A stretch of DNA of 29,034 bases. It comes from a virus. The notes below the pieces were generated by a model. The model saw nothing but the letters and a program-made list of their open reading frames with translations, had not been told where the DNA came from and searched no databases. Position numbers and translations under genes: made by a program. The DNA is taken from the IMG/VR virus record IMGVR_UViG_3300033145_000937, positions 1-29,034 of that record, one strand, 5' to 3'. Within the stretch, counting starts at the first letter, position 1. Each line of letters begins with the position of its first letter. Shown here piece by piece: positions 5,166-23,753 of this stretch.

Positions 5166-5447
5166 CTAGTCAGCCTGTCTTTTACCGCCTAATATCTTCC
5201 TATCACCAAAATTAAGCACCTCCAATATAGAACCAAGGGTCGTTAGTAACCCATTAAGCTTCGGGTGGGCAATTATCATAATACCTACAAATATTTCATT
5301 TTTACACTTGGGACAATTATCTTTAATAATTTTAGTACAGTCTTTTTCGAATGGAGCTATACTAATCAATATCTCCTGTTTACAATGGCCACATACTATT
5401 CTTGGTTTTAATTCTTCTTTATGGATTGTTATTAATTCTCTTGCCAT
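5166..5447 (-). CDS. Zinc-ribbon protein of unknown function
   Basis: The 93-residue protein carries two CxxC knuckles, CGHC at about residues 19-22 and CPKC at about 45-48, spaced as in a single four-cysteine zinc ribbon. The following segment (IFVGIMIIAHPKLNGLLTTLGSILEVL) is hydrophobic but interrupted by HPK, so a membrane segment is possible and not secure. The start codon overlaps the stop of the upstream HNH gene (TAATG), and its ribosome site GAAAGGAG is the last part of that HNH reading frame. The HNH copy therefore drives translation of this gene. Confidence 0.65.
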   Translation of the reverse strand: MARELITIHKEELKPRIVCGHCKQEILISIAPFEKDCTKIIKDNCPKCKNEIFVGIMIIAHPKLNGLLTTLGSILEVLNFGDRKILGGKRQAD

Positions 5448-6118
5448 TATATTCTCCTTTCAATTCTAATTATTTGTTGTGTTGATTTATTGATATACGA
5501 TACATGATCTTGTCTATTAATAATAACAAAATCTTTGGGGTTTACCGATATTGATTTATTATTTTGAAGTTGCCAATGTAATATGGCATGGCAAGGGTTA
5601 CATAAAGTCATAGTATCTTCTGGAGCACATCGTTTCTTATCTAAATAAATATGGTGGTTACCCAAACATTTATAATTATTCTTACAATTTTTATTTTCAC
5701 AGTAGTCTTTACGGATGTCTTTTTTGTATTCCCTATCTCTCCAGATTTCACAATACTTATCATTGGGATGGGATTTGGTATTTCCTATTGATATCTTTAA
5801 TTTTGTTTCTTCAGTATGTTTATAATTAAGCGCATTGATATTACCCATCATTCCTAATGATATTTTCTTTTTAGTTTCTTCAGATGGCTTTTTACCAATT
5901 TTTACAATAGACATTATTGCTTTTGATTCTTCTGAACATTTCTTACCACGCCTATTTGTATTGCCTTTACTTGCCACAGCCATCTTCTTCTTCGTTGCAT
6001 CAGATTGTTTTTTGCCAAGCATTGGTTTATTATGCCCACTAATATACCTCTTGCCATAGTTAGTTATCCTACCACAATCACCACAACCGCATATTCTACG
6101 TATTAGTTTCCTTTTCAT
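5447..6118 (-). CDS. NUMOD3/HNH homing-type endonuclease, copy A
   Basis: This is a 223-residue free-standing homing-type nuclease. Order: a basic N-terminus with a cysteine cluster (RRICGCGDCG) and a GHN motif; four NUMOD3-like DNA-binding repeats of the form S-E-E-T-K-x-K-I (KKQSDATKKKM, KKCSEESKAIM, KKPSEETKKKI, YKHTEETKLKI); then the nuclease part with DYCENKNCK, GNHHIYLDKKRCAPED, CNPCH and LH; and a C-terminal tail ending SYINKSTQQIIRIERRI. It lies between SbcC-C, which it overlaps by 4 bases, and a zinc-ribbon gene. Five close paralogues are in this window (7874, 9418, 16562, 20562, 27099). It is presumably mobile by homing into phages that lack it. Confidence 0.9.
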   Translation of the reverse strand: MKRKLIRRICGCGDCGRITNYGKRYISGHNKPMLGKKQSDATKKKMAVASKGNTNRRGKKCSEESKAIMSIVKIGKKPSEETKKKISLGMMGNINALNYKHTEETKLKISIGNTKSHPNDKYCEIWRDREYKKDIRKDYCENKNCKNNYKCLGNHHIYLDKKRCAPEDTMTLCNPCHAILHWQLQNNKSISVNPKDFVIINRQDHVSYINKSTQQIIRIERRI

Positions 6119-6729
6119 TTTCTTCTTTTAATTTTCCTCTTAACAGTAGCCTCTATTCCATTATACCTTACAATATAAATTTTATCACAATGTTTTTCCA
6201 GTCTTTGATCATGAGTAGTTAATAAAATCTGCATATTAAATTTTGTAGTTAGATACTGGAGCACTTGCCCTGCCTCTTTTGTAAACCGCCCCAGAAACTT
6301 AAAAGGCTCGTCAAGGAATAGAATCGGCCTAGATCGTGGTTGTTGCATATACCACAAAATAATACGAAATCCAAAGGATATGACATCCAACAATCCTCCA
6401 CCCATGTCCTTCTTGGGCATAAGCCTTGTATTACCTTTTTTAATAATTGGAGTTACTTCTACACTATTTCTTTTCGTATCAAATTGCAATTCAAAAATAT
6501 ATGGCCTATTGTAAACTGCCTGAACCATGTACGTGATAAGAGTCTCCACCTTTTTCTTAAACTGCTTTTGAATAATCTTACTGGTTTCGGTTAAAAGATA
6601 ATGAGCTTCTGTTGCTGTTTTAATTTCAGCCCTTACTTTTTTTAACTTCCGCATTTTTATTCTTTTATCCTGAAGTAACAATGTTTTTTGAACGAAAAGA
6701 TCATCGTATCTTTTTCTTATATCAATCAT
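6115..6729 (-). CDS. Rad50/SbcC C-terminal half (ABC ATPase: signature, Walker B, H-loop)
   Basis: The 204-residue protein is the C-terminal lobe of an SMC/Rad50-type ATPase as a separate polypeptide. The first 65 residues form a basic coiled coil. The ABC signature region is GGGLLDVISFGFRI (about 109-122), Walker B is RPILFLDEPF (about 134-143, catalytic Glu present), and the switch His is in LLTTHD (about 160-164). There is no Walker A here; it is in the gene at 8433-9416. Together they would rebuild one nucleotide site, as the two lobes of Rad50 do. The C-terminus is unusually basic (VKRKIKRRK). The start overlaps the 75-residue coiled-coil gene by 4 bases. Confidence 0.88.
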   Translation of the reverse strand: MIDIRKRYDDLFVQKTLLLQDKRIKMRKLKKVRAEIKTATEAHYLLTETSKIIQKQFKKKVETLITYMVQAVYNRPYIFELQFDTKRNSVEVTPIIKKGNTRLMPKKDMGGGLLDVISFGFRIILWYMQQPRSRPILFLDEPFKFLGRFTKEAGQVLQYLTTKFNMQILLTTHDQRLEKHCDKIYIVRYNGIEATVKRKIKRRK

Positions 6730-6953
6730 TCTTCCATTCCTTCAATCAGCCTCTGAGCCTTACCATGCAATACCCTTTTCTTTTTGGAAAACCTATCATA
6801 TTTTTTTTTCAATGAAATAAGATGATCCCCTGCTGTATCCATAGTAATACCATAACCTTTTAAAGTCTTAACAGATTTTTTTAAATCATTTTCAGCTATT
6901 GCTAGTTTCTTATCTAACTGAGCCATATTTTCTTTTAATTCTTCAAGGTTCAT
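6726..6953 (-). CDS. Short coiled-coil protein between SbcD and SbcC-C
   Basis: This is a 75-residue protein made almost entirely of heptad-like helix (LEELKENMAQLDKKLAIAEN, then LISLKKKYDRFSKKKRVLHG), with a short break around GYGITMDTAGD. It overlaps SbcD (6943-7866) by 11 bases upstream and the SbcC C-terminal half by 4 bases downstream. It most likely supplies part of the ascending coiled-coil arm of a split Rad50/SbcC, since the C-half has only a short coil. A one-base change would be needed to fuse it to SbcC-C, so it could also be an N-terminal extension separated by mutation. Function is inferred from position. Confidence 0.65.
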   Translation of the reverse strand: MNLEELKENMAQLDKKLAIAENDLKKSVKTLKGYGITMDTAGDHLISLKKKYDRFSKKKRVLHGKAQRLIEGMEE

Positions 6954-7866
6954 CTTCCATTACCTCAACTAAAAAATTTTTAACGTCAACGCTTGCGCTG
7001 CGTTTCTTCATAAGCTTTTGCAAAACATCTTTCACAGGCATTATCTTGTAATCTTGCTTTTGTATGAGTTTGGTAAATTTCCTTAGAATATCGACAGACA
7101 AGGAGTTGACTTTTTCTTTTCTTTTTATATGTCGCCTTGTCATTACTAACTTAGAGCTCTGATGGGGTATAATAACACGTTCTGAACGGCCTGACTTGCT
7201 GTTATAAACAAAGAAAGAAGGGGCATGACCTAAGTTATATTTATTGCTTTCCAATCTTAATATTGGTCCGGTGTTAATGACCGTTGTATCCTTCCCGTTA
7301 TAGATTGTTTGTGCATGGGTGTCGCCAACCAGAATTAAATCCCATCCTTTATTTTTTGAAACGAAATATGAAATTCCAGTGAAATCATGTTTTGGAAATA
7401 ATTCCTTGGTAGTAATCGGTGCATGGATAACAAGTATATTTATTTTCCAATTTGGCTTGGGCTTTGGTATAGCTTCCTTCCAGCTACAACCATATATACA
7501 AACATTATTATTTATAATCATAGGTATCTTATTACTCAATAATGTTATCAATCCTGATCTACTAAGAACCCCCAAGGTTGTTGGTGTAGTGTAAGGGTCA
7601 GCCCTCATATACAAGTCATGCTGTCCATATATCGTGTATATAGGAACTTTATATTTTTTTAATAGACAGCTCATTAAATGCAAAACATGCCAGTTGCGTG
7701 ACTCATTAAAAAAATCCCCTGCTTGCAGTATTAGAAGTTGATGTCGTTTTGCATACTTCAAAATAAAGGTAAACTTATTTTCAAAGACTTCCAATATTTC
7801 ATCTTTACGACCAACAGGATTTCTACTGGTTGCATGAATATCAGAAAGTAGTAAAACAGAAGTCAT
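6943..7866 (-). CDS. SbcD/Mre11-type metallophosphoesterase nuclease subunit
   Basis: The 307-residue protein has all metal-binding motifs of the Mre11/SbcD calcineurin-like nuclease: LSDIH (D9, H11), AGDFFNES (D51), IYGQHD (about 79-84), VIHAP and VGDTH. The length equals the catalytic core plus a short C-terminal extension (IMPVKDVLQKLMKKRSASVD) that could be the helical segment contacting the coiled-coil base of Rad50. It is encoded between the two halves of the SbcC-like ATPase. By analogy with T4 gp47 and SbcD it processes DNA ends and hairpins for recombination-dependent replication. It overlaps the downstream coiled-coil gene by 11 bases. Confidence 0.92.
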   Translation of the reverse strand: MTSVLLLSDIHATSRNPVGRKDEILEVFENKFTFILKYAKRHQLLILQAGDFFNESRNWHVLHLMSCLLKKYKVPIYTIYGQHDLYMRADPYTTPTTLGVLSRSGLITLLSNKIPMIINNNVCIYGCSWKEAIPKPKPNWKINILVIHAPITTKELFPKHDFTGISYFVSKNKGWDLILVGDTHAQTIYNGKDTTVINTGPILRLESNKYNLGHAPSFFVYNSKSGRSERVIIPHQSSKLVMTRRHIKRKEKVNSLSVDILRKFTKLIQKQDYKIMPVKDVLQKLMKKRSASVDVKNFLVEVMEDEP

Positions 7867-7873
7867 TTGTTTT

Positions 7874-8443
7874 TTATCTCTCTTTCTTATTAATTCTTAT
7901 TATTTTCCTTGTTAATTTATTAATATATGACACGTGGTCTAGTCTATTTATTATAATAAAATCTTTTGGATCGGCTGATTTTCTTTTACCATCTTGCAAT
8001 GCATTATGTAAAACCACATGGCAACTACAACACAAAGTCATTACTTCATTTGGCGCACACCTCTTTTTATCCAAGAATACATGATGGTTATCTAATTGCT
8101 TATAATGACCTTTACAATTTTTATTTTCACAGTAGTCTTTTCTTATATCTTTTTTGTACTCTCCATCACGCCATATATCACAATACTCATCATTAGGATT
8201 ACATTTTAAATTTGCTAAAGATCGTTTTAATATTGATTCTTTAGATTTTGTTTTGCCTTTACTTGCTAAAGACATATTTCTTTTAGCTTCTACAGACTTG
8301 GGTTTACGCATCTTTCTTTTAGTTTCTTCTGAACGTTTTTTATTTTCCCAAGTATGCCCAAGAATATATTTTTTGCCTGGGCTTGTAATGCCACCACAAC
8401 CACCCCTACACCTTCTACGTATTTTTCTTTTCTTATTTTTCAT
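7874..8443 (-). CDS. NUMOD3/HNH homing-type endonuclease, copy B
   Basis: At 189 residues this is one of the shorter paralogues. The N-terminus has RRRCRGGCGG and a GHT motif. There are three NUMOD3-like repeats (KKRSEETKRKM, KPKSVEAKRNM and a weaker KTKSKESILKR). The HNH region has DYCENKNCKGHYKQL, DNHHVFLDKKRCAPNE, CCSCHVVLH, and the tail ends SYINKLTRKIIRINKKER. It is inserted between SbcC-N and SbcD, starting 11 bases inside the end of SbcC-N. Its last codons (AAGAAAGAGAGATAA) provide the purine-rich site in front of SbcD. Confidence 0.9.
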   Translation of the reverse strand: MKNKKRKIRRRCRGGCGGITSPGKKYILGHTWENKKRSEETKRKMRKPKSVEAKRNMSLASKGKTKSKESILKRSLANLKCNPNDEYCDIWRDGEYKKDIRKDYCENKNCKGHYKQLDNHHVFLDKKRCAPNEVMTLCCSCHVVLHNALQDGKRKSADPKDFIIINRLDHVSYINKLTRKIIRINKKER

Positions 8444-9416
8444 AGTATTCTTTTTTTATTGCTCGTAATGTCTTCACACTAATTTTCCCAAAACACGTAG
8501 GGCATCTTTTCTCTTGTTTAATTATAGCAATATATTGCCTTATATATTTATTTTTTAAAATAGTATCACTCTTTATCTCTTCTTGTATATCTTGTGCCTC
8601 CAATATCAACCGTTCTTGTTGCTCAAGAGCCTCCATCCCTCGCTCAGCCTGTTCAATTTGTCTAACAAGGGTTTTTACCCTTAAATATTTTTTAAGAGCT
8701 TCAACCTCCTCTTGAGACTCTTCTATTTTTACCAATAAATCTTTAATCGTCCAGTATCTACTTTCTAGTTCTATTTCTTTTCCGTGAACACTTTCTAATT
8801 CAGCAATTATAGTATCGGCCTTATTCAAATCTTTTAAAGACTCAAGCTTCGCATCAAATTCTTCTATATCTATCTTGAGTCTTTTTTTCGATTCTTTTAA
8901 AACAGATAGTTTATCGGCAGCCTTTTTTATCCAAAGGATTATCTTATCAGCTTGTGTTATTTTACTGATTGCCTTGGCCACCTGTCCTCCGGAAGAAGTA
9001 ACCAAAAAATGAGGCTCTAACTGACCCGAAAAATTCAAATCGTTTAGGTTTAATTTTTCCTTTATGATATCAGGTATGGCATGGCCAGTTTTCCTAAACT
9101 TAAATGACTTCCTGCCATCTGCTATTTCCATTTTATATATAGATTTGCTTTTGGTATTAGAAAGGCTTATCTTTGATATATTGCCGGCATCATTAAAAGT
9201 AAGTTGCGTTTCGGTGGGGGTTTTTTTTTTATCAAAATCACTATGAAAATCAAAACCTTTTGGACGGTTAGTTACAACCTTTTGCACTGCCCTTATTATA
9301 GGAGTCTTACCAGCCAAGCTATCTCCTACAATTCCAGTAATGCCAGGAATAGGAGCTAGATTTATAATGGTGCTTCTATGGTTCTGAAAATTTTTTATCC
9401 TGATCTGTTTCAGCAT
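8433..9416 (-). CDS. Rad50/SbcC N-terminal half ending at the zinc hook
   Basis: This is a 327-residue protein. Residues 1-20 (MLKQIRIKNFQNHRSTIINL) are the typical SMC/Rad50 N-terminus, followed by Walker A GDSLAGKT at 31-38. A coiled coil begins near residue 175 (LSVLKESKKRLKIDIEEFDA) and runs to about 300. The last 25 residues hold a CPTC zinc-hook motif at 305-308. The protein stops there, so the descending coil and the Walker B lobe are missing and are supplied by separate genes (6726-6953 and 6115-6729). The hook would pair two such molecules through zinc. An HNH gene precedes it and repeats its first six residues. It partners with SbcD at 6943-7866. Confidence 0.88.
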   Translation of the reverse strand: MLKQIRIKNFQNHRSTIINLAPIPGITGIVGDSLAGKTPIIRAVQKVVTNRPKGFDFHSDFDKKKTPTETQLTFNDAGNISKISLSNTKSKSIYKMEIADGRKSFKFRKTGHAIPDIIKEKLNLNDLNFSGQLEPHFLVTSSGGQVAKAISKITQADKIILWIKKAADKLSVLKESKKRLKIDIEEFDAKLESLKDLNKADTIIAELESVHGKEIELESRYWTIKDLLVKIEESQEEVEALKKYLRVKTLVRQIEQAERGMEALEQQERLILEAQDIQEEIKSDTILKNKYIRQYIAIIKQEKRCPTCFGKISVKTLRAIKKEYYEK

Positions 9417-9417
9417 T

Positions 9418-10110
9418 TTATATCTTTTTCTCTATTCTAAATATTATTTTTCTTGATTTTTTATTAATATACGACACATAGTCTAGTCTATTTATTACTA
9501 TAAAATCTTTGGGATTTACTTTTTGTCTTTTACCATCTTCAAGCGCACGATGTAACCATACATGGCAACTTCTACATAAAGTTATTACATCATCTGGAGC
9601 ACATCTTTTTTTATCTAACCAAATATGGTGATTAACAAGTAATTTAGATATCTTTTTGCAATTAGCATTTTCGCAATAATCTTTTCTTATATCTTTTACA
9701 TATTCTTTATCTCTCCAAGTATCACAATATTCATCTTTAGGATGGGGTTTGATACTTGTTATAACCTTATTTTTTATATGCTCTTCAGATTTTGGCTTAC
9801 GCATCTTTCTTTTTGTTTCTTCAGACCTTGGCCCACACCCATAAGTATTGCCCATCATCTTTTTTATATGTTCCTCCGAAAGCTTTCTACCAGTCAATCC
9901 TAAAGATATATTCTTTTTATGTTCCTCAGATTTTGGCTTACCAATTGCTGCTAAAAACATATTTTTTCTTGCTTCCTCAGATGGTGGACCACGTTTTTTA
10001 CCTTTCCAATAATGCCCATGGACATATTTATTACCTGGCTCGGTAATTAGCTTACATTTTTCATCTGCACAACCACATCTTCTACGAATTTTCCTTATCT
10101 GCTTTAACAC
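9418..10110 (-). CDS. NUMOD3/HNH homing-type endonuclease, copy C (GTG start)
   Basis: At 230 residues this is the longest paralogue. It starts with GTG at 10110, and the ribosome site GAGGAG is in the end of the 58-residue gene upstream. Its first six residues, MLKQIR, are identical to the start of the following SbcC N-half, unlike the other copies. There are five NUMOD3-like repeats (GPPSEEARKNM, KPKSEEHKKNI, RKLSEEHIKKM, GPRSEETKRKM, KPKSEEHIKNK), then DYCENANCKKISKLL, VNHHIWLDKKRCAPDD, CRSCHVWLH, and the tail SYINKKSRKIIFRIEKKI. It has evidently captured the translation start of the SbcC gene. Confidence 0.9.
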   Translation of the reverse strand: MLKQIRKIRRRCGCADEKCKLITEPGNKYVHGHYWKGKKRGPPSEEARKNMFLAAIGKPKSEEHKKNISLGLTGRKLSEEHIKKMMGNTYGCGPRSEETKRKMRKPKSEEHIKNKVITSIKPHPKDEYCDTWRDKEYVKDIRKDYCENANCKKISKLLVNHHIWLDKKRCAPDDVITLCRSCHVWLHRALEDGKRQKVNPKDFIVINRLDYVSYINKKSRKIIFRIEKKI

Positions 10111-10524: not shown

Positions 10525-11474
10525 TACACTTCCTCCAAAAAATATTTCTTCCACTCTTTAAAATTATCTGTATTCAAAAAACTTTTAAAATGCAATTCAT
10601 CAAAAACTTTTAAAAATTTGTCTCTTCTAAATGTATTGCGTCGCAGTATCATTCTTGGCAATTCATCATCTCCATCTTTATACGGAAGCGTTACTAGAGG
10701 CAAGTTTCTTTTAATAATTTTCTGACCTTCTTTGCTTTCTATCCGATCTAAGATTTTTCCTTTATTTAATTTACCCAAAATATATTTCAATGCTTTTGAT
10801 GACGACTTCTTAGGGTCACTCGCACCAACAATTCCAGCCACACCATCTCCATCACAACCACCAATTGCCTTTGCAAAAGCCCACTGGTCGGGCGATACAC
10901 CAAACTCTTTTAAAAGGTGCTTTTCAGTAAAGAACTTCTTTTTCTGAGGACTCCATATATCGCAGTGGTTTAAGCATTGATACATATCATTATCGCTAGT
11001 AACCATAATAACACGGCTTTTAGTTTTTCTTAATTTCAATGCCCAATACGCAAGAACATCATCCCCTTCAAATCCATCTCTTATAAAATTATTTTCAAAT
11101 CCAAGAAAAGGAAGTACTCTTTCTGCCAATTCAGTTCTTTGCAAAGATACAGAACGATATGCTATTTCATCTTCTACAGTCTTGCTTTTATTTTTCTTGC
11201 GGTTTTCTTTGTACTGAGGGTAGGCCGTATATCTATGATTAATAGGAGAATCCCAACAAATAATAAATTTATTCGTTTGAAATTGTTTGGAGAGCGATAA
11301 GAGTTTACGTAAGAAGCCGTAAATAACCCCTGTCTCTTTACCATTATAAGACAAGTAGCCAACTGAATGCAATGCCGCATATGCAATTGCGCTACCGTCT
11401 ATTAAAAGCGTAACTGGTTTCTTAGTATCGTGGCTTTCTTGTTTTTTTATTTTGAGTTGGTTAAATATATTCAT
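10524..11474 (-). CDS. 5'-3' exonuclease / flap endonuclease (FEN, T5 D15-like)
   Basis: This is a 316-residue member of the PIN/FEN nuclease superfamily. The acidic residues of the two-metal site can be followed: LLIDGSA (about 23-29), FIICWDSP, YKENRK, DGFEGDDVLAYW (about 133-144), VTSDNDMYQ, and GGCDGDGVAGIVG (about 205-217), which is the helix-hairpin-helix region. This order is that of Pol I 5' nuclease domains and phage RNase H/FEN proteins that remove RNA primers and flaps. The ATG overlaps the stop of the deleted HNH remnant (11471-11599). It is encoded apart from a polymerase, as expected when the replicase is of DnaE type. Confidence 0.92.
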   Translation of the reverse strand: MNIFNQLKIKKQESHDTKKPVTLLIDGSAIAYAALHSVGYLSYNGKETGVIYGFLRKLLSLSKQFQTNKFIICWDSPINHRYTAYPQYKENRKKNKSKTVEDEIAYRSVSLQRTELAERVLPFLGFENNFIRDGFEGDDVLAYWALKLRKTKSRVIMVTSDNDMYQCLNHCDIWSPQKKKFFTEKHLLKEFGVSPDQWAFAKAIGGCDGDGVAGIVGASDPKKSSSKALKYILGKLNKGKILDRIESKEGQKIIKRNLPLVTLPYKDGDDELPRMILRRNTFRRDKFLKVFDELHFKSFLNTDNFKEWKKYFLEEV

Positions 11475-11599
11475 CTTTCTTTCACTAATTGTATTTTTAT
11501 TATTTTTCTTGTTGATTTATTAATATATTTATTGCCTGGCTCAGTAATACCACCACAACTACCCTTACATCTACATCTTCTACGGATTTTTCTAATCAT
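11471..11599 (-). pseudogene. Internally deleted NUMOD3/HNH gene (fossil homing endonuclease)
   Basis: This is a 42-codon open frame between RecA and FEN. Residues 1-26 (MIRKIRRRCRCKGSCGGITE, then PGNKYI) match the Cys-rich N-terminus of the intact HNH copies. The rest (NKSTRKIIKI) matches their extreme C-terminal tail. All NUMOD3 repeats and the nuclease domain, about 150 codons, are missing. The junction is at TATATTAAT, a short sequence present both in the N-terminal KYIN region and in the C-terminal SYIN region of intact copies, so deletion between microhomologies explains it. The frame stays open, and its end overlaps the FEN start, so it may persist as a translation coupler. Confidence 0.85.
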
Positions 11600-11600
11600 T

Positions 11601-12707
11601 TTAATATCTTTTCTTACGACGTTTAACATCTAAAGAAAATGCATCTTCTATTTTATTCCATTTTCCTTCTATTAATTTTTTGACTTCTTCTATTTCATTA
11701 TTTTTTTCTATATACCTTATAAACCTCTCTCTTGTCTTAAAAAATTTTCCTTTAAATCGGATTGCTTTCTTGCCCCATAAATAATCCACCATACTACCCA
11801 AATCATCAAGACCATAATCGTATAAAATATTAAAATCCGCTTCTCTAAACGGCTTTGCTACCTTACTTCTCTCAACCTTGACATGGCCTTTTATTCCAAA
11901 TACCTTTTTTTCTCCTAACTTGGTTTTTGTTAATTTTTCCTTTTCACGAATCCATGCTACTTGATGCGTGTAAAAATCTAATGCTTTGCCTCCAGCTCTA
12001 TAAGTCTTTTTACCAAAAGTAATTCCAATTTTAGTTCTTACTTGCGAAACTATAAATAAAGTAGAATCTTTATCATTCCTCTCTAATAGTGAACATACGT
12101 AAGCAAAAAAACTAGAAGTATACTTTTGCTTTTCAAGATTAAAGCTCCCTTCTATATCCTTATCGTCCTGTACACTTTTTGCAAATCGTGTATTGTCTGC
12201 CGTAGATTTTAACGCATCCCAACTATCAATAATATAAAGAAGGAACTCTCCTTTCCTTAATTCATTTAGTCTTTTAATATAATCACGACCCATTGCTTCT
12301 ATACTTTTATTTTTCTTCCAAATTACAGATTTTACAAAATCTTTTCCATACATTGCTTCAAGAGGAAAATCTATTATACCCTCAGAACTGGCATAAACAA
12401 TACTAACCTTTTTAACCCTTGGAAATATTCTTGATTTTACTTTCTTTACACGCTTGTAACACCAGAAAGCAAGCTCAAGAGCAAGAAGTGTTTTGCCACT
12501 GCTTCCATCGCCTACAATATTATCCACCCTTGCTCTTGACCAACCTCCATCCTTGCCCTTACCGCTAAGAGCAAGGTTTAACGTAGTACTTCCAGAAGAA
12601 AGAAAATCCACTGGAGGGGTCCCTCTTGCTTCAATACCAACAGACGACATTGCATCGTCAACCTTACTAGACGTTGAATTCTTGCTCCTACGTTTTATTT
12701 TTCTCAT
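11601..12707 (-). CDS. RecA/UvsX-family recombinase
   Basis: This is a 368-residue strand-exchange ATPase. Walker A is GDGSSGKT at residues 66-73, the Walker B strand is LLYIIDSWD (about 156-164), and the segment STLFIVSQVRTKIG followed by KKTYRAGGKALDFYTHQVAWI is the L1/L2 and core-end region of phage RecA/UvsX proteins. The linker VDFLSSGSTTLNLALSG is the usual start of the ATPase core. The N-terminus (MRKIKRRSKN) is unusually basic and resembles the start of the neighbouring HNH proteins. It works with the gp32-like SSB and the UvsY-like mediator encoded upstream in the same unit. Confidence 0.92.
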   Translation of the reverse strand: MRKIKRRSKNSTSSKVDDAMSSVGIEARGTPPVDFLSSGSTTLNLALSGKGKDGGWSRARVDNIVGDGSSGKTLLALELAFWCYKRVKKVKSRIFPRVKKVSIVYASSEGIIDFPLEAMYGKDFVKSVIWKKNKSIEAMGRDYIKRLNELRKGEFLLYIIDSWDALKSTADNTRFAKSVQDDKDIEGSFNLEKQKYTSSFFAYVCSLLERNDKDSTLFIVSQVRTKIGITFGKKTYRAGGKALDFYTHQVAWIREKEKLTKTKLGEKKVFGIKGHVKVERSKVAKPFREADFNILYDYGLDDLGSMVDYLWGKKAIRFKGKFFKTRERFIRYIEKNNEIEEVKKLIEGKWNKIEDAFSLDVKRRKKRY

Positions 12708-14805: not shown

Positions 14806-15357
14806 TTATTCAGTAGCTACTAGCCTTCTCTCAGATGTAATGGTACTTACACACTTGATACTTTCTTGAATTGTTTTATCATTTAATTGTAATAACCCAC
14901 AATCAATTCCAAAATCAGTAAATGCACTCATCCAAGAATTATCTCTATCTTTATTTTTACTCTCGTATAATAATTCAAAATATACTTTTTTAATTCCAGA
15001 ACCTGCAATTTGCTTCAAGCAAACAAAACAGGGCTGTAAGGTACAATACATAATGCTATCTTTTATACTGATACCGTATTTAGCAGCGTAGTTGATTGCA
15101 TTAGCTTCCGCATGAATCGAAAGGCAAGTATTATACTTATCAATATCTAATGCTTTTTTTGATCTTCTAAAACAAAATTCACTTCCTTTGTCGCTACATT
15201 GAAACGTTCCAACAACTGTTCCTGTAAAACCAGTAGCAAGTATTCTATTATCTTTAACTATAATAGAACCGCTCGATCGCGAATTACATGTCGATCTTAA
15301 AGATATCAATTTTGCTATAACCATAAAATATTGATCCCAACTTATTCTATTCTGCAT
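14806..15357 (-). CDS. Deoxycytidylate (dCMP) deaminase
   Basis: The 183-residue enzyme converts dCMP to dUMP, the substrate of the thymidylate synthase encoded just upstream. The zinc-site motifs are HAE (H82, E84) and PCFVC (C110, C113). The segment RSTCNSRSSGSIIVKDNRIL near residue 21 is the usual first motif of dCMP rather than cytidine deaminases. The start overlaps the thymidylate synthase by 11 bases, with AAAGG ahead of it, so the two steps are co-translated. The central insert with extra cysteines and histidine (FQCSDKGSEFCFRRS) is the variable region where a second zinc binds in T4 dCMP deaminase. Confidence 0.9.
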   Translation of the reverse strand: MQNRISWDQYFMVIAKLISLRSTCNSRSSGSIIVKDNRILATGFTGTVVGTFQCSDKGSEFCFRRSKKALDIDKYNTCLSIHAEANAINYAAKYGISIKDSIMYCTLQPCFVCLKQIAGSGIKKVYFELLYESKNKDRDNSWMSAFTDFGIDCGLLQLNDKTIQESIKCVSTITSERRLVATE

Positions 15358-16120
15358 GCTTACCTTTCTTTAAAAGATTTTCTAATGGTTCAATCTGAAA
15401 ATCATAACAATGAAGACCCATACAAGAAAAGGCCATTGGCCCAGGCTCCACACCTATTTCTTCCGCTACATATTCGTTAAGTAAAGTAAAACCACCCATA
15501 TTCTGAGGCCACCCTCCATAAAGATCCCACGATCTATAGACAACGAGAGTTAATAATTTACCGTCTTTAACCTTAAAATCTAATCCTCTTAAGCAAGGCG
15601 ACGTGCCCCTTTCAGTTTCATTTGTATAGGGCTTGTCATATACAAAATTAGAATCTCTATCTCCTATATTAATATAACAATGATTATTTCCAAGACCCTT
15701 TTGTTTAAAGTGTCTAATCATCCATTCTAATTGAGTATCTCCTCCAGTAAACGACTCAGGTGGAACAGAAGGTTTTTTTGAATAGTAAGGGTTATAAAAT
15801 CTTCCATTAATCCACGTAGCATACTTATACTCTTCTAACTTACCCAAGACTGGATCCATTAAATAATTTGCAAAATATTCTCCTATTTTTTCATCCGTTG
15901 TTGTTGGATTTGATGAAATCCCTTCTGGCATTATAGGAGACAATGGCCTTTGATGAGGAAACATAGAAATACCAGAAACAAAATCAAATTCTAATCTATG
16001 CGCCCCTGCAAAAGAACCATTTGTAATCAAATACTTCCTACCATGATTATATATTTCCCATAAAAGATGAAACCAAGTATCACCAAGAGTTGTAGATTTA
16101 ACAAATACAGGATCGATCAT
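15347..16120 (-). CDS. Thymidylate synthase, archaeal (methanogen) type
   Basis: This is a 257-residue ThyA-superfamily enzyme that methylates dUMP. The nucleophile is C176 in TSPCLRG, followed by the phosphate-binding RSWD (R196-S197), PQN (N207), and LHCYD (H237, Y239). The residue equivalent to E. coli Asn177 is Asn, which favours dUMP rather than dCMP and argues against a cytidylate hydroxymethylase. The sequence RSWDLYGGWPQNMGGFTLLN and the one-residue differences from classical PCH....F are those of the shorter methanogen/archaeal branch, known also from some bacteria and phages. The N-terminus (DPVFVKSTTLGDTWFHLLWE) also fits that branch. Overlaps of 4 and 11 bases tie it to its neighbours. 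Confidence 0.82.
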   Translation of the reverse strand: MIDPVFVKSTTLGDTWFHLLWEIYNHGRKYLITNGSFAGAHRLEFDFVSGISMFPHQRPLSPIMPEGISSNPTTTDEKIGEYFANYLMDPVLGKLEEYKYATWINGRFYNPYYSKKPSVPPESFTGGDTQLEWMIRHFKQKGLGNNHCYINIGDRDSNFVYDKPYTNETERGTSPCLRGLDFKVKDGKLLTLVVYRSWDLYGGWPQNMGGFTLLNEYVAEEIGVEPGPMAFSCMGLHCYDFQIEPLENLLKKGKHAE

Positions 16121-17209: not shown

Positions 17210-20200
17210 TTAATAATTTTTAAATAATAATACCTTAAGTAATTTTAAAAATACATTTATTCCTTGCTTAAAAACAGGCTTATTATCTGAAGAATGTAAT
17301 GATGCAGATGGACTAATACAATAACATATCCAAGCAGAATATTCTTCATTCCAAACTGTCTTCCCGCTCATGGCTATAATCCCAGCCTTTTGACCAGTAA
17401 AGAAATTTAAACTCGTATTGCCAAATGCTAAAATTATCTTCGGTTTAACCATTTTTATTTCATATTTTATAAACTTGCTACATAACTGAATCTCTTCAAT
17501 TGTAGACTTACCACTTACACTTGGATAGCATTTATTAATAAATGTTACATGAAAATCTTCCCTCTTATACCCACCTTGCTTAATAGGCTTCCATAATATA
17601 TCTCCAGATCGACCTACAAACCCCGTCCCTTTTTTATCTTCATCATACCCAGGTACCCCACCTATAATAAACATATTGAATTTGCCTGTGCTTGGTGAAA
17701 CTGGAGCAGTACATTCTTCTCGTAATTTACAAGCAGTACAAGACATAAGATCATCATGCCCTGAAAATTCAACTCTTTTTATAATCCTTTTAGATTTGCA
17801 AACTCTTCTAAGTTCTTTGCTATCACCTGATATTAAACCATCTATACGATCTAAACGAATACTTCCAACAAGACGATAAAGATTTTTATAAGTAGCTTTT
17901 GGATCTATAATAATACGAAAGTCAAAATACGATTTAACCTTCTCGCTCATTTGAACATTATCATTTAGATCATAAGCACCTATATCTTCAAGTATAGTTC
18001 TTAACGCTTTCTCCTTATGCTTGGCTGAATTTTTAGTATTGAAAAGTCCTTTAAGCTTATTATCTACGGGCGAAGCAGCCTGATATGCCTTTACTTCGCC
18101 CAATTTTTTAACTTCTTTAAATGGTACGTATAATTTATTCCCTCTGGAAACCCAATTAACAGGATCACTTATACCAACCTTTGGCAAAACCAGCACCAGC
18201 CCCAATCTATAAGCTTCTTCAACCAATAATGTTTTTTTATCTTTTGCTCCGTATGTTAATGATGCACAAATAAATTCTGTTGGATAGTATCTCTTTAGCC
18301 ATGCACATTGGTAGCCAACCAGCGCATACGCAACGGAATGAGCCTTATTAAATGAATATTTAGCATGCTCTTCTAGCCCATCCCAAAACTCTTCTGCTTC
18401 CCTTTTAGAAAAGGTTTTCTGTCTTAGACATCCACGAATAAATTTTTTCTTGTATGGCATAAATTCTTTTACACTTCTCTTTTTCCCAATAATCTTCCTA
18501 ATCTTATCAGCCGTAGAATAAGGAAGACCAGCCATCTTATGGATTACTTCCATTACCTGCTCTTGATAAACAATAACTCCATAAGTATCCTTAGTAATTT
18601 TCTCATATATTTTATGATGCTTGTCCCACTTTCCGCCTCTTTGTCTTCGTATGTATTCAGCAGTCATTCCAGAGTTGTAGATTCCTGGCCTTACAAGAGC
18701 AACAACATCACTTAAAGTTTTAAAATTCTTTATTGATAGCTCTGATATAAGAGCAGTCAAGGCATAAGTATTAAGCTGAAATACACCAACCGTATTCCCT
18801 TCGTTTATATCTCTTATAACATCTTTATCTTCAATATCAATTTTATCTAAATCAATATTTTTATGATTTTCTTTAGCTAACCTTACAGTTTCACCAAAAA
18901 CACTTAGAAGCTTTAATGCCAATGCATCGAGCTTCATCAATCCCACAAATTCAGCATTGTTCTTTTCCCAATTTACAAGAATCATTTCATTTCTTTCCAT
19001 AAGGTTACAGCGAGTACTATCTTCAAGAGGCTTCTTTGATATTACTAAGGCAGCTGCATGAGTACTATAAGTTTTAATCTGCCCCTCTAATGTCTTTGCT
19101 ATTTTTATTATCTCTGGATAGTTATCATCAAATTCTTTTCCTTCTGGATATTCATCTATCGCTTCTTGTATTCCGGTATGATCGTCATTATCCTCAATCA
19201 ATTTAGCAAACCTATCTACTTCGCCTAAAGGTATATCAAACACTCTACTAACATCTCTAACAACGGCCTTTGCTTTCATTCTATTAAAGCTACTTATATT
19301 TGCTATATGATTTTCTCCATACATTATTTGCAAATGCTTTTTTACAATATGTCTTTTTGTATGTTCAAAATCTACATCAATATCAGGATAGTCAATTCTA
19401 TCCTTATTAATAAATCTACTAAAAAGTAAACCATGTCGTATAGGGTCTAATTTGGCACCAGTGATTCCAAGAAGAAATGAAATTAATGACCCTCCGGCAG
19501 ACCCCCTGCCTTCACCAACAAAAATGCCATTCTTTTTACACCAACTAACCAATTCCCAAACTATTAAAAAATAACGAACAAATTTTTTATTAATAATTAA
19601 ATCGTATTCTTCTTTTAGCCTTTCATAATAAGCTTTATCTAGTTTAATACTCTTGCCAAATTTATTTCTAAATCCTTTAATACAAAGCTTCCATAAAAAA
19701 TTCTTTTCATTTAAAGGAACTCCTTTTACACGAGGTAATAATACTTCCTGTTTAACTATTCTAAAATCACTGCATTTCTCTGCTATCTCTATTGTATTCG
19801 TAAGATACTCTTTTTTATAAAAATCTATACTATTAAGTGCCCTCATCATTTCATTAGCAGTACATAAGTGAAGATTTTTAATTGAAAATTTCCATCGTTT
19901 AGGGTCTGTCCATCGTGCCTTTGTTTGAATTGCCAAAAGCACTTCTTGAGCTTTCCACTCACTGCGATTGATATAATGGCAGTCATTTGTAGCTATAATC
20001 TTACACCCAGTTTTACGAGAAAGTCGTAATGCAAGTTTATTTACCTTCCGTTGAGCTTCTAGTTTATGAGGCATTACTTCAAGATATAAGTCATCACCAA
20101 TCTTATCAAACAAGTCATGGAACAACGCAATCCCACTATCAAACTTGGTTAAAAAGGAACTCGCGCATGCTGTAGATATAACAAGACCCTTGCAGTGATC

Positions 20201-20569
20201 TAAAAGCATTTTATAACTAATTCTCGGTCTATAATAAAACCCTTCTATATTAGCGTAGGTAAGCAATCTACATAAATTTTTAAATCCGGTTTGATTCTTT
20301 ACCAAGAGTACTACGTGGCCACGTACCCTGTCTTTCTTTTCTATATCAGGAGCAATATATGCTTCGCATCCTAGAATTGGAGCAACACCATATTCATCGC
20401 ATGCCTTCTGAAACTCAATAAGGCCAGTCATTACGCCATGATCGGTACAGGCTAAATATTTAAATCCTAATTTTGAAGCTCTTTCGGCGTACTTTTTAAC
20501 CGTACCAACACCATCTAATACACTATATTCAGTATGCAGGTGTAAATGACAAAAGTTTGCATTATCCAT
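17210..20569 (-). CDS. dnaE: DnaE-type (C-family) DNA polymerase fused to a family-4 UDG-like domain
   Basis: This is the 1119-residue replicative polymerase. Residues 1-210 are a PHP domain with metal ligands still present (CHLHLH at 7-12, TDHG at 42-45). The palm/nucleotide site includes GEGRGSAGGSLISF (352-365) and catalytic D396 and D398 in YPDIDVDFE. The tandem helix-hairpin-helix region follows (about 800). The usual OB and tau-binding domains are not recognisable. Instead, residues about 940-1110 match family-4 uracil-DNA glycosylase: cysteines 944, 947, 1014 and 1030 with 4Fe-4S spacing, the GxPGxxED-like IGGVPGYDEDKKG, and FVGRSGDIL. The usual HPS motif reads SPSAS, so the glycosylase activity is doubtful. 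It is flanked by HNH copies D and E. Confidence 0.92.
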   Translation of the reverse strand: MDNANFCHLHLHTEYSVLDGVGTVKKYAERASKLGFKYLACTDHGVMTGLIEFQKACDEYGVAPILGCEAYIAPDIEKKDRVRGHVVLLVKNQTGFKNLCRLLTYANIEGFYYRPRISYKMLLDHCKGLVISTACASSFLTKFDSGIALFHDLFDKIGDDLYLEVMPHKLEAQRKVNKLALRLSRKTGCKIIATNDCHYINRSEWKAQEVLLAIQTKARWTDPKRWKFSIKNLHLCTANEMMRALNSIDFYKKEYLTNTIEIAEKCSDFRIVKQEVLLPRVKGVPLNEKNFLWKLCIKGFRNKFGKSIKLDKAYYERLKEEYDLIINKKFVRYFLIVWELVSWCKKNGIFVGEGRGSAGGSLISFLLGITGAKLDPIRHGLLFSRFINKDRIDYPDIDVDFEHTKRHIVKKHLQIMYGENHIANISSFNRMKAKAVVRDVSRVFDIPLGEVDRFAKLIEDNDDHTGIQEAIDEYPEGKEFDDNYPEIIKIAKTLEGQIKTYSTHAAALVISKKPLEDSTRCNLMERNEMILVNWEKNNAEFVGLMKLDALALKLLSVFGETVRLAKENHKNIDLDKIDIEDKDVIRDINEGNTVGVFQLNTYALTALISELSIKNFKTLSDVVALVRPGIYNSGMTAEYIRRQRGGKWDKHHKIYEKITKDTYGVIVYQEQVMEVIHKMAGLPYSTADKIRKIIGKKRSVKEFMPYKKKFIRGCLRQKTFSKREAEEFWDGLEEHAKYSFNKAHSVAYALVGYQCAWLKRYYPTEFICASLTYGAKDKKTLLVEEAYRLGLVLVLPKVGISDPVNWVSRGNKLYVPFKEVKKLGEVKAYQAASPVDNKLKGLFNTKNSAKHKEKALRTILEDIGAYDLNDNVQMSEKVKSYFDFRIIIDPKATYKNLYRLVGSIRLDRIDGLISGDSKELRRVCKSKRIIKRVEFSGHDDLMSCTACKLREECTAPVSPSTGKFNMFIIGGVPGYDEDKKGTGFVGRSGDILWKPIKQGGYKREDFHVTFINKCYPSVSGKSTIEEIQLCSKFIKYEIKMVKPKIILAFGNTSLNFFTGQKAGIIAMSGKTVWNEEYSAWICYCISPSASLHSSDNKPVFKQGINVFLKLLKVLLFKNY

Positions 20570-21129: not shown

Positions 21130-22113
21130 TTATCTCTTGTTTAATATATCCTTAATTCCTATTCTTTTCCCTTCAGGTTTTTCCCACGGCCTTTTGACTA
21201 TTCTTGACATTGTCTTGTCAAGTGTATTTTCCTCTTGTATATGTTCTATTTCTTTTTTTATAGGTATTGGCAATGTTGCTTTCCCCATCTTGTCTGGTAG
21301 CAATCCAACTCTGTAAGATATTGCATCGCACCATTTGCATGGTATGAAATTTCTGTTTCTATGGTATAATAATTTTCTTGCAATATTAAACTCCTTACCA
21401 TTCCAAATATCGTCTAGACAGCCTCCTTCTTTTACTTCTCCGCAATAGTAATGTCCTCTCCAATCGTTACAGCATATAGCAATTTTGCCATCCCATCTAA
21501 TACTCAATTCTCTAAATGGCTTTGCGCATCTTTTTTCTATTGGTGAAAGTAATGGAGGAAAGGCACACCCACAATGATTATTTAAAGTGCTATGCCCACC
21601 ACTTCCAGCGTCTTGTATGTCTTTTATGTATATAACTTTTTTGGTAGTAATTGGAAATTTTTTATGTGGGCTTGCGCATCCGGGATATTCTTCGCCTTTT
21701 ACTTTTAATTTGATCTTCTTTGAGAACGGATTATTTTTATAATCATCTATACCAATAATATTTATCCCATTTAAAAATAACTTATGGATTTTTTCTTTTG
21801 GTAAACGTGCAAGTCCAGTTCCATTTGTCAATATTGTTAATTGATTTTGTGGAAGATGAAATCTAAATATTTTTATAATTTCTAGATACTTTGGATTTAA
21901 AGTAGGCTCTCCATGCATGGCAAACTCAATACGTGATCCCCATTTTGTCGCCTTGATTTGTCTTGCAATGTTTTTACTACATTCTAACGACATGAATTTA
22001 TGTCCAGTTGGTTTTTTTCTTATGCCACGTATACCACAAAATTTACAAAATAAATTACAACCTTCTGTAAGTTCAACTTGTATTGAAAACGGTGGTTCTT
22101 GTTTTTCTTTCAT
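21130..22113 (-). CDS. Radical SAM enzyme with SPASM-type C-terminal cluster motif
   Basis: This is a 327-residue protein. The radical-SAM cluster motif is CNLFCKFC (CxxxCxxC, about residues 19-26) in ELTEGCNLFC, with the GE-type motif FAMHGEPTLNP (about 64-74). In the C-terminal half, RWDGKIAICCNDW, then GGCLDDIWNGKEF and FIPCKWC form the pattern of a SPASM or twitch auxiliary cluster. Such enzymes modify peptides, sugars or other substrates by radical chemistry. It overlaps the sulfotransferase-like gene by 4 bases and is last of a four-gene cassette (21130-25184). An inserted segment (about 135-190) with extra cysteines (NNHCGCAFPP) is unusual. Substrate unknown. Confidence 0.88.
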   Translation of the reverse strand: MKEKQEPPFSIQVELTEGCNLFCKFCGIRGIRKKPTGHKFMSLECSKNIARQIKATKWGSRIEFAMHGEPTLNPKYLEIIKIFRFHLPQNQLTILTNGTGLARLPKEKIHKLFLNGINIIGIDDYKNNPFSKKIKLKVKGEEYPGCASPHKKFPITTKKVIYIKDIQDAGSGGHSTLNNHCGCAFPPLLSPIEKRCAKPFRELSIRWDGKIAICCNDWRGHYYCGEVKEGGCLDDIWNGKEFNIARKLLYHRNRNFIPCKWCDAISYRVGLLPDKMGKATLPIPIKKEIEHIQEENTLDKTMSRIVKRPWEKPEGKRIGIKDILNKR

Positions 22114-22904
22114 TTTGAAATTAATCTCCCCTTTTTATTTAGTGCCCATCCAAATATGGAAAGGTTTATTTTACGCAACTCATCATCATCTAAAACTTTT
22201 TTGAATTTGGGAGTAATTCCAAATTCCTCAATATATTCCTTATACCGACCAAGGATTTCTTTAGGATTGGCATCTTTTCTGGTACCTGTAAACGAACTGC
22301 CGCCACCATAACTATGAATCTTATAGTCAAAGCGTCCATCGTTATTTGGGAGTTCTAACATCTCGCCGAGCTGAATGCGATATTTCTTTTTTGTAAACCA
22401 GTCATTGTAATTCAAACGAAAACAAAAATCAAAATTCTTATTAATAGCGAGTTGTTTCCAATGAATGATGCATTCGCTATACCACCCAGGAGGAGCAGGG
22501 GTTTTACGTTTATCGGAAAACTTTAAGCGAGAGACGACGTGGTTATACACATCTCGAATGATAATAATATATTTAATTTTACTAGTTGTTATACCATATT
22601 TTTTAAATCTATACAGGCCATCTGCATATCTCAATGCATCCTCGTAAGTCGTAACAACAAATGGGTGAACTATTTTTAATCTTCCTTTTTCATATTGTCT
22701 CAATTGAGTTTCATCATCTGCATTATGGAATGGGTATTCTATATTCCAATACTTTGTTGGACGAGTCCATTTTACATGTGGTCGAAGAGAATTAATTAAC
22801 ACTCCTGGTTCTTCAAAATGTAATGGAATCCATTCAACAATTGCATGACCCCCAGACCTCCTTTGGAAGAACAATCTATATTCTATGCTTACTTTTTGAG
22901 CCAT
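22110..22904 (-). CDS. Sulfotransferase-like protein
   Basis: This is a 264-residue protein. The N-terminal FFQRRSGGHAIVEWI (about 12-26) is like the 5'-phosphosulfate loop of PAPS-dependent sulfotransferases (R-S-G-x-H/T-x-L-x-x-x-L), and YIIIIRDVYNHVVSRLKFS (about 112-130) is like the 3'-phosphate motif (RDP.....S). The region after residue 130 has a W-rich segment (CIIHWKQLAI) and RLNYNDW, as seen where sulfotransferases have [YF]E.L. The transferred group and acceptor are not shown by the sequence. It overlaps the glycosyltransferase by 16 bases and the radical-SAM/SPASM gene by 4, so these act as one unit. Another P-loop transferase is the main alternative. Confidence 0.7.
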   Translation of the reverse strand: MAQKVSIEYRLFFQRRSGGHAIVEWIPLHFEEPGVLINSLRPHVKWTRPTKYWNIEYPFHNADDETQLRQYEKGRLKIVHPFVVTTYEDALRYADGLYRFKKYGITTSKIKYIIIIRDVYNHVVSRLKFSDKRKTPAPPGWYSECIIHWKQLAINKNFDFCFRLNYNDWFTKKKYRIQLGEMLELPNNDGRFDYKIHSYGGGSSFTGTRKDANPKEILGRYKEYIEEFGITPKFKKVLDDDELRKINLSIFGWALNKKGRLISK

Positions 22905-23728
22905 AATCTAATACCTCCATCCAATCTTTTCATTGTATTAAAAATTCTCTTCCATTGTATAACAACATCGGTTCTTGTTTTGCTATCAAAACCTTTCCAT
23001 GGTTTTGAACTGACCTTTTCAACTACACGCACATACTTTGGAAACTCTTGTGCTAATAAAATAGCACTTTCTTTTTGCATTTGAGATGTTCTGTATAAAG
23101 AGCATCCTCCATCAGCACCGCTCTGAGCTTGATTCCATGCATACTTATATGTAACACAATTTTTAAATCCACGCTGAAGTAATAATAATGTTACTACAAA
23201 ATCCTCCATAACAAGCTGTTTATTGTACTTGTTTTCAAGATAGTCGAATGATATGTTATATTTTTTTTTCAGCTCAATCATTTTTTTACAATTATAAGCA
23301 TACGCATTATTCATTCTTGTAATTTCCACATAATCTTCTTCTATTCTATTATTACCACATCTTTGACTTATGCCTACATGTATTATTCCTTCTTCAAGCC
23401 AACTCTCAAGGGTCCTAACCATATTAATAAAATCTTTAGGGCTACATTTTTGTAATTTTAAATTTTTATCACGAACATGAAAATTCATATCATCATCTAA
23501 CATCAATGCATATTTCTTTTTGCTATTTTCAATAATCCACTGCCTTGTTTTACATATACCCTTCTCAGGACACTCTATAACATTCGTGCCATATATTTTT
23601 TTATATTTTTTAAAATCTTGTTTATCAACTACGATGAAGGTGTTTTTTATAAATCTTTTAGGTATGGAATCAAAAGTTCTTTGATTTCTTGGTCTTCTAT
23701 GGCTTGGTATATATATGGCAATTTGCAT
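22889..23728 (-). CDS. Glycosyltransferase of the TET-associated (TAGT) type
   Basis: The preferred start is the ATG at 23728 (MQIAIYIPSH), with AAGGAC upstream, giving 279 residues; an ATG at 23779 lies inside the preceding gene. GT-A features are the IYIPSHRRP strand (5-13) and LMLDDDMNF (76-83, DDD metal motif). Beyond these, the order of GISQRCGNNR (119-128), VMEDFVVTLLLLQRGFKN (173-190), GGCSLYRT (207-214) and RTDVVIQWKRIF matches the phage TAGT family. That family is known from gene neighbourhoods to glycosylate modified pyrimidines in DNA, usually beside a TET/JBP oxygenase. No TET gene is in this window. The sugar donor and acceptor are unknown; other GT-A families are the alternative. 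Confidence 0.82.
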   Translation of the reverse strand: MQIAIYIPSHRRPRNQRTFDSIPKRFIKNTFIVVDKQDFKKYKKIYGTNVIECPEKGICKTRQWIIENSKKKYALMLDDDMNFHVRDKNLKLQKCSPKDFINMVRTLESWLEEGIIHVGISQRCGNNRIEEDYVEITRMNNAYAYNCKKMIELKKKYNISFDYLENKYNKQLVMEDFVVTLLLLQRGFKNCVTYKYAWNQAQSGADGGCSLYRTSQMQKESAILLAQEFPKYVRVVEKVSSKPWKGFDSKTRTDVVIQWKRIFNTMKRLDGGIRLWLKK

Positions 23729-23753
23729 CTTCTTTTTGTCCTTTTTTATATTT

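Follow-up and report, generated by a model that had tools for sequence, protein, structure and literature searches.

The virus record IMGVR_UViG_3300033145_000937 contains, in the 29,034 bases analysed here (the window, a 29-kb fragment of the genome), a cluster of minus-strand genes in which we find the ATPase SbcC/Rad50 divided into two proteins just after its zinc hook, with the gene for its nuclease partner, SbcD/Mre11, between the halves. We think that the cluster likely encodes a phage SbcCD (Mre11-Rad50) complex that does the job of T4 gp46/47, a function that we infer from sequence, and in which the ATPase subunit is made as separate proteins and is accompanied by a small third component. 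A preliminary description of this DNA had placed the two halves and the short gene at the coordinates that we confirm here. The parts are as follows.

8433-9416, minus strand: SbcC/Rad50 N-half, with ABC ATPase lobe I, a long helix and a C-terminal zinc hook (AAA_23, 3e-7; phrog_16465, 3.3e-23)
9303-9326, minus strand: Walker A, GDSLAGKT, N-half residues 31-38 (from the sequence)
8511-8951, minus strand: N-half arm, predicted single helix, residues 156-302 (AlphaFold2 and DSSP; 47-residue repeat in the family)
8493-8504, minus strand: CPTC zinc-hook motif, N-half residues 305-308 (from the sequence)
6943-7866, minus strand: SbcD/Mre11-like phosphoesterase with motifs DIH, GDFF, GQHD, VIHAP and GDTH (Metallophos, 6.4e-10; sequence)
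6726-6953, minus strand: two-helix protein of 75 amino acids (aa), the third component (conserved family; AlphaFold2)
6115-6729, minus strand: SbcC/Rad50 C-half, with a short return coil, ABC signature, Walker B and H-loop (phrog_15167, 2.5e-20; family profile to Rad50, 8.9e-18)
6394-6402, minus strand: ABC signature GGG, C-half residues 110-112 (from the sequence)
6307-6312, minus strand: Walker B Asp-Glu, C-half residues 140-141 (from the sequence)

The two halves of the ATPase

The N-half is 327 aa long and has Walker A, a Q-loop glutamine (Q132) and the CPTC motif, after which there are 19 residues and a stop codon. Its family profile finds Rad50 first among the structures in the PDB (4.5e-15). 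G31, G36 and K37 are invariant in 69 N-half sequences, both hook cysteines are invariant in our alignment A6, and the Q-loop glutamine is present in all 92 of the non-redundant loci described below. The AlphaFold2 model made with the 69 sequences (predicted local distance difference test, pLDDT, of 88.8) has a lobe-I head, one helix from residue 156 to 302, the hook and a short helix, and the best Foldseek matches of this model are Rad50 heads.

The C-half has 204 aa and consists of a short helical N-terminus followed by the GGG signature, a Walker B of ILFLDEP and an H-loop of TH. The ABC signature of SbcC/Rad50 usually takes an SGGE-like form, and the one here is of the GGG type. Over 79 C-half sequences D140 is invariant, and G110, G112 and E141 are each at least 90% conserved. 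Against solved structures, the C-half family profile finds the C-half of Pyrococcus Rad50 first.

Across both halves each catalytic motif is present once: Walker A and the Q-loop in lobe I on one protein, the signature, Walker B and H-loop on the other. The CxxC hook is there as well, with its zinc ligands on the N-half only. What sets the pair apart from SbcC/Rad50 is that the two lobes are not on a single polypeptide. All 69 N-halves match PHROG 16465 and all 79 C-halves scanned match PHROG 15167, so each half has already been catalogued alone, as "exonuclease" and "ATPase" respectively. Nothing in these library names shows that the two belong together as parts of one ATPase, and we found no description of a split SbcC/Rad50 in the open-licence literature.

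In the window, SbcD has all of the phosphoesterase motifs I-V. The small gene starts before SbcD has ended and in turn runs into the C-half gene with an ATGA overlap, so that SbcD, the small gene and the C-half are linked by ATGA or short overlaps. The preliminary description had proposed that Rad50/SbcC is divided precisely at its zinc hook, with Walker A on an N-half that ends 19 residues after CPTC, the remaining ATPase motifs on the C-half, SbcD between the two and a short coiled-coil gene ahead of the C-half. This anatomy holds up in every part: the motifs are seen in the sequence, the profiles of both halves find Rad50, the short gene belongs to a conserved helical family, and the split recurs in 92 loci.

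Recurrence of the split

We scanned viral contigs for further copies. The N-half by itself found 5 loci, a four-sequence N-half alignment found 194, of which 80 were kept, and a C-half alignment gave 68; searching with the single C-half protein gave no match in the viral contigs. After dropping a copy of the window (L001), we counted 158 sources, with profile matches to the N-half in 148, to the C-half in 130 and to SbcD in 138. No open reading frame (ORF) in these sources matched both the N and C profiles. Removing near-copies and incomplete genes left 92 non-redundant loci, including the window, in which both halves are complete.

The halves are separate ORFs in all 92 loci, and the gene order is N-half, SbcD, C-half in 89. 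Bacillus phage vB_BboS-125 (L007) is an exception, with SbcD after the C-half, and in L144 and L150 SbcD and the N-half form a single ORF. These two fusions (L144, 3102-5420; L150, 2648-4957) still terminate at the hook. A CxxC is found in 91 of the loci and lies no more than 25 residues from the end of the N-half in 89 (median 7). That 89 of the 92 loci agree in both split and gene order is more than chance.

No full-length SbcC was found in 46 related records searched whole; the window's own record was searched only as the 29-kb fragment, so a complete copy may still lie in the rest of that genome. Each of the 46 has a single match to the C-half, the open frames being 196-302 aa long. Those AAA_23 matches that exceed the cut-off fall only in N-half frames (305-472 aa) or in the two SbcD-N-half fusions; below the cut-off are one N-half (in the record of L154) and five further matches in frames of 309-420 aa. 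The N and C frames are separate in 46 of 46 records.

A pattern scan of bacterial and archaeal genomes gave 13 loci, 12 of them fitting the family, all on fragments of metagenome-assembled genomes (MAGs). L171 is doubtful as a family member, as its C-half profile match is weak (best 9.6e-7) and it resembles an ABC transporter. Since the scan found only stray MAG contigs and one doubtful locus, the split-SbcC family looks viral.

Isolated phages show the arrangement as well. Microcystis phage Mvi-JY20 has the four genes consecutively (N-half of 332 aa, SbcD, small protein of 94 aa, C-half of 205 aa), its N-half ends 14 residues after CSQC, and all four genes are annotated as hypothetical. In vB_BboS-125 the order is N-half, an AP2 gene, the small gene and the C-half; the excerpted text of the paper on this phage (PMC6375668) does not mention SbcC.

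L150 (218,948 bases) is probably Bacillus phage 0305phi8-36 (218 kb), judging from its size and the fusion. For the SbcD-SbcC fusion of that phage, one SbcC P-loop NTPase segment "was not observed", according to the published account (PMC3175470). SbcD and the N-half are one protein there, unlike the separate genes of the window, and the C-half of L150 has its own ORF, which follows the fusion at a distance of about 1 kb downstream. This ORF is probably the NTPase segment that was reported missing.

Several observations weigh against a split complex of this kind. The patterns used to fetch loci came from split proteins, so unsplit close relatives or a sister group could be missed. L110 does not have a strict CxxC. 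As motif V of SbcD, 71 of the 92 loci have GDxH, 16 have GHxH and 5 have neither, and the GDxH form is possibly a change of metal ligand. In Microbacterium phage Magritte the genes are scattered (C-half gp2, N-half gp155, MRE11 gp228, with the small-protein match inside gp245), and CxxC is absent from gp155. We rejected Magritte gp4 as the N-half, because by eye it looks like a clamp-loader-like ATPase.

The small third component

A profile of the small protein built from 67 seeds matches in 123 loci and in 89 of the 92 non-redundant ones. It also matches 43 of 47 whole records, one of these matches (in the record of L150) being weak and in an unrelated place, and each genome has one N-half, one C-half and usually one small gene. 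Pfam and PHROG scans gave no family common to the members; the scattered single matches are coiled-coil noise. The AlphaFold2 model (76 sequences, pLDDT 87.6) has helices at residues 3-33 and 43-74, about 32 residues each, joined by a 9-residue loop. Two equal helices suggest that the protein would fold as a hairpin, and Foldseek found no fold match for it in the PDB. We also considered whether the small protein is homologous to one of the halves, and the match is weak (25% and 58% probability, over coiled-coil stretches). By its conservation, the small protein appears to be a dedicated third component that is in no catalogued family.

We considered extra small ORFs between SbcD and the C-half as pieces of the arm, but in the ten loci listed they look like unrelated phage genes. 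In L146 (4559-5925), a 366-aa gene that by eye looks like a sliding clamp lies between the small gene and the C-half.

Arm lengths and how the arm may be closed

Rad50 arms normally pair antiparallel within one chain. In the split family the N-half arm, from the Q-loop to CxxC, is 170-326 residues long and falls into classes near 175, 222 and 269 residues and longer (14, 57, 15 and 4 of 91 rows, with one unclassed). The distance from the C-half start to the signature is 112 +/- 13 residues, and the small protein has 84 +/- 7. We found that the length of the N arm is uncorrelated with that of the C-half coil plus small protein (n = 88 loci, rho 0.001, p 0.99), whereas the outgoing and returning coils of intact SbcC agree in length (rho 0.94, n = 9; these are the measurable ones of 31 loci fetched from the phylum of a Streptomyces genome). 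The split family does not have these matching coils. Its arm class changes at least 26 times on the C-half tree, and for the 222 class 7 changes are required even when only well-supported branches are counted. There are also close pairs one unit apart with the partners unchanged, such as L061 and L019 (arms of 175 and 225, C-half coils of 116 and 118, small proteins of 84 and 84).

The N-half arms have an internal repeat. In the 19 arms of exactly 222 residues, the hydrophobic profile correlates with itself at 0.65 at a lag of 47 and 0.51 at a lag of 94, and there are doubled hydrophobic positions within each unit of about 47 residues. We looked for a 47-residue repeat in intact SbcC arms and it is absent there. 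For the arm of the window itself, a lag of 47 ranks only fourth. A Rayleigh test on arm lengths is broad (best moduli 45-51, and a best value of 50 with the N-halves clustered at 40%), so we describe the unit as about 42-50 residues and not exactly 47. A hydrophobic period of 3.38 was rejected as a sign of unusual packing, because it is the same in the outgoing arms of intact SbcC.

The preliminary description had proposed that two polypeptides form each arm and meet at the zinc. As stated this is not supported: the zinc ligands are on the N-half only, and the arm lengths of the two halves are uncoupled. As far as sequences can tell, the N arm is modular and does not pair along its length, one residue to one, with a returning coil built from the C-half and the small protein. 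If its distal part is closed at all, this would be by some other means, such as a partner N-half in parallel, small hairpins or both. Our tentative proposal, to which we give somewhat less than an even chance, is that the split freed the Rad50 arm: the N arm would change by whole modules of about 47 residues without a return strand, and would be closed by the hairpin subunit or by a partner N-half.

Closure by a partner N-half is possible, if still doubtful. Two parallel N helices would run from the heads to a shared zinc, with the small hairpin bracing the arm or its base, and any change in arm length would then be matched automatically. The uncoupled lengths, the recurrent changes of arm class and the placement of the hook all fit this arrangement. 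Against it is the normal antiparallel pairing within one chain, and the pairing of two N-halves would itself be conjecture.

We find it rather unlikely that each unit of the N arm docks one small hairpin, with several copies per arm, or that the units fold back as an alpha-solenoid. The repeat, its doubled hydrophobic positions and its absence from intact arms speak for such schemes. However, the AlphaFold2 model shows one continuous helix for the window arm, in which the 47-residue lag is not the leading one; in profile comparisons the small protein is only weakly similar to the two halves, and one small gene per genome is uninformative on copy number.

Quite improbable, in our judgement, is a full antiparallel arm reaching to the hook, with the N-half coil on one side and the small protein plus the C-half coil on the other, so that only the chain of an ordinary Rad50 is cut. 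In the window the lengths are near (173 residues from Q-loop to CxxC, versus 75 for the small protein plus 111 from C-half start to signature) and the N-half arm is predicted as one 147-residue helix. The lack of any length correlation over the 88 loci speaks against it, as do the two equal helices and 9-residue loop predicted for the small protein.

HNH genes and the origin of the split

Three further minus-strand genes lie within or beside the cluster and are incidental to it.

7874-8443, minus strand: HNH homing-type endonuclease gene between the N-half and SbcD (PHROG HNH, 6e-4)
5447-6118, minus strand: NUMOD3/HNH gene after the C-half (NUMOD3, 1.7e-12)
9418-10110, minus strand: NUMOD3/HNH gene before the N-half (NUMOD3, 0.0019, below the cut-off; aligned with the other two HNH genes)

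That HNH genes flank both halves, as had been proposed, is correct, with one strong match and weaker ones for the others; that they produced the split is not. We listed all ORFs of at least 110 aa within the 92 clusters and recognised HNH and AP2 genes by eye. Only 3 of the 92 clusters contain such a gene (HNH in the window and L017, AP2 in vB_BboS-125), so the split was not made by HNH invasion, and relatives whose clusters have no HNH gene show the identical split. In 44 of 92 loci there is no gap between the N-half and SbcD genes, which abut, overlap or are fused. In the window, the tail of the N-half after CPTC, FGKISVKTLRAIKKEYYEK, is like those of HNH-free relatives such as L029 and L091, so the N-half is not truncated; the HNH start codon overlaps the last N-half codons and leaves the N-half uncut. 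The HNH genes are passengers. Decay, in which HNH invasion or a frameshift broke SbcC and left the pieces as relics, would suit a cluster flanked and interrupted by HNH genes but is extremely improbable, given that 92 diverged loci have the split in common, that the catalytic residues of the two halves are conserved and that nearly all loci have no HNH gene.

A 52-aa ORF in the window (11471-11629, minus strand) is like an HNH gene minus its middle, with the N-terminal motif joined to the C-terminal tail NKSTRKIIKI.

Proposed assembly and setting

In the complex that we propose, the N-half would bring Walker A, the Q-loop, the long outgoing helix and the terminal zinc hook, and the C-half the signature, Walker B and H-loop together with the short return coil. 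One ABC ATPase would arise from contacts between the two at the head and at the arm's base. Two such heads and two SbcD would make the nuclease, and two N-halves would be joined via a zinc shared by their terminal CxxC motifs. The conserved two-helix protein, of about 80 aa, would most likely sit on the arm or at its base. The cluster's neighbours in the window are UvsX-, gp32- and clamp-loader-like, with a weak UvsY-like match below the cut-off. By analogy with T4 gp46/47, the complex most likely processes DNA ends for recombination-dependent replication alongside the UvsX-, gp32- and (weakly) UvsY-like proteins.

The window also contains, all on the minus strand, a Pol III alpha gene (17210-20569; PHP, NTPase and finger domains) whose product carries, at residues 966-1103, a fused uracil-DNA glycosylase domain, and a radical-SAM/SPASM protein and a second, weaker radical-SAM-like protein (21130-22113 and 23754-25184). 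A hydroxymethylcytosine (HMC)-glucosyltransferase-like gene (22889-23779; phrog_842, 2.6e-46) is present with thymidylate-synthase-like (15347-16120) and dCMP-deaminase (14806-15357) genes. This combination possibly points to glucosylated hydroxymethylated DNA.

Significance and comparison with known systems

The split family offers a natural experiment on the requirements of the arm and zinc hook of Rad50, as the hook is kept, the chain is cut right after it and the arm length is free of the return coil. Its parts are small and separable, so that experiments can address the head, the arm, the hook and the nuclease individually. It also accounts for phage genes annotated as "hypothetical", "exonuclease" or "ATPase". 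If the freed arm is real, it would give the Rad50/SMC superfamily a new, three-piece arm architecture that is present in many phages.

Multidomain enzymes of cells are often found split in phages, and the jumbo phages do so with DNA Pol III and RNA polymerase subunits; the excerpted text of that account takes SbcC as one ATPase and describes no split SbcC (PMC7824862).

The closest known systems are SbcCD of E. coli, archaeal Mre11-Rad50 and T4 gp46/47. The proteins described here share with them the ABC motifs, the CxxC hook, the SbcD partner and the DNA-metabolism setting, and Rad50 heads are their best relatives in the PDB. They differ in having the ATPase in two polypeptides cut after the hook, an extra two-helix protein and arm lengths that are uncoupled.

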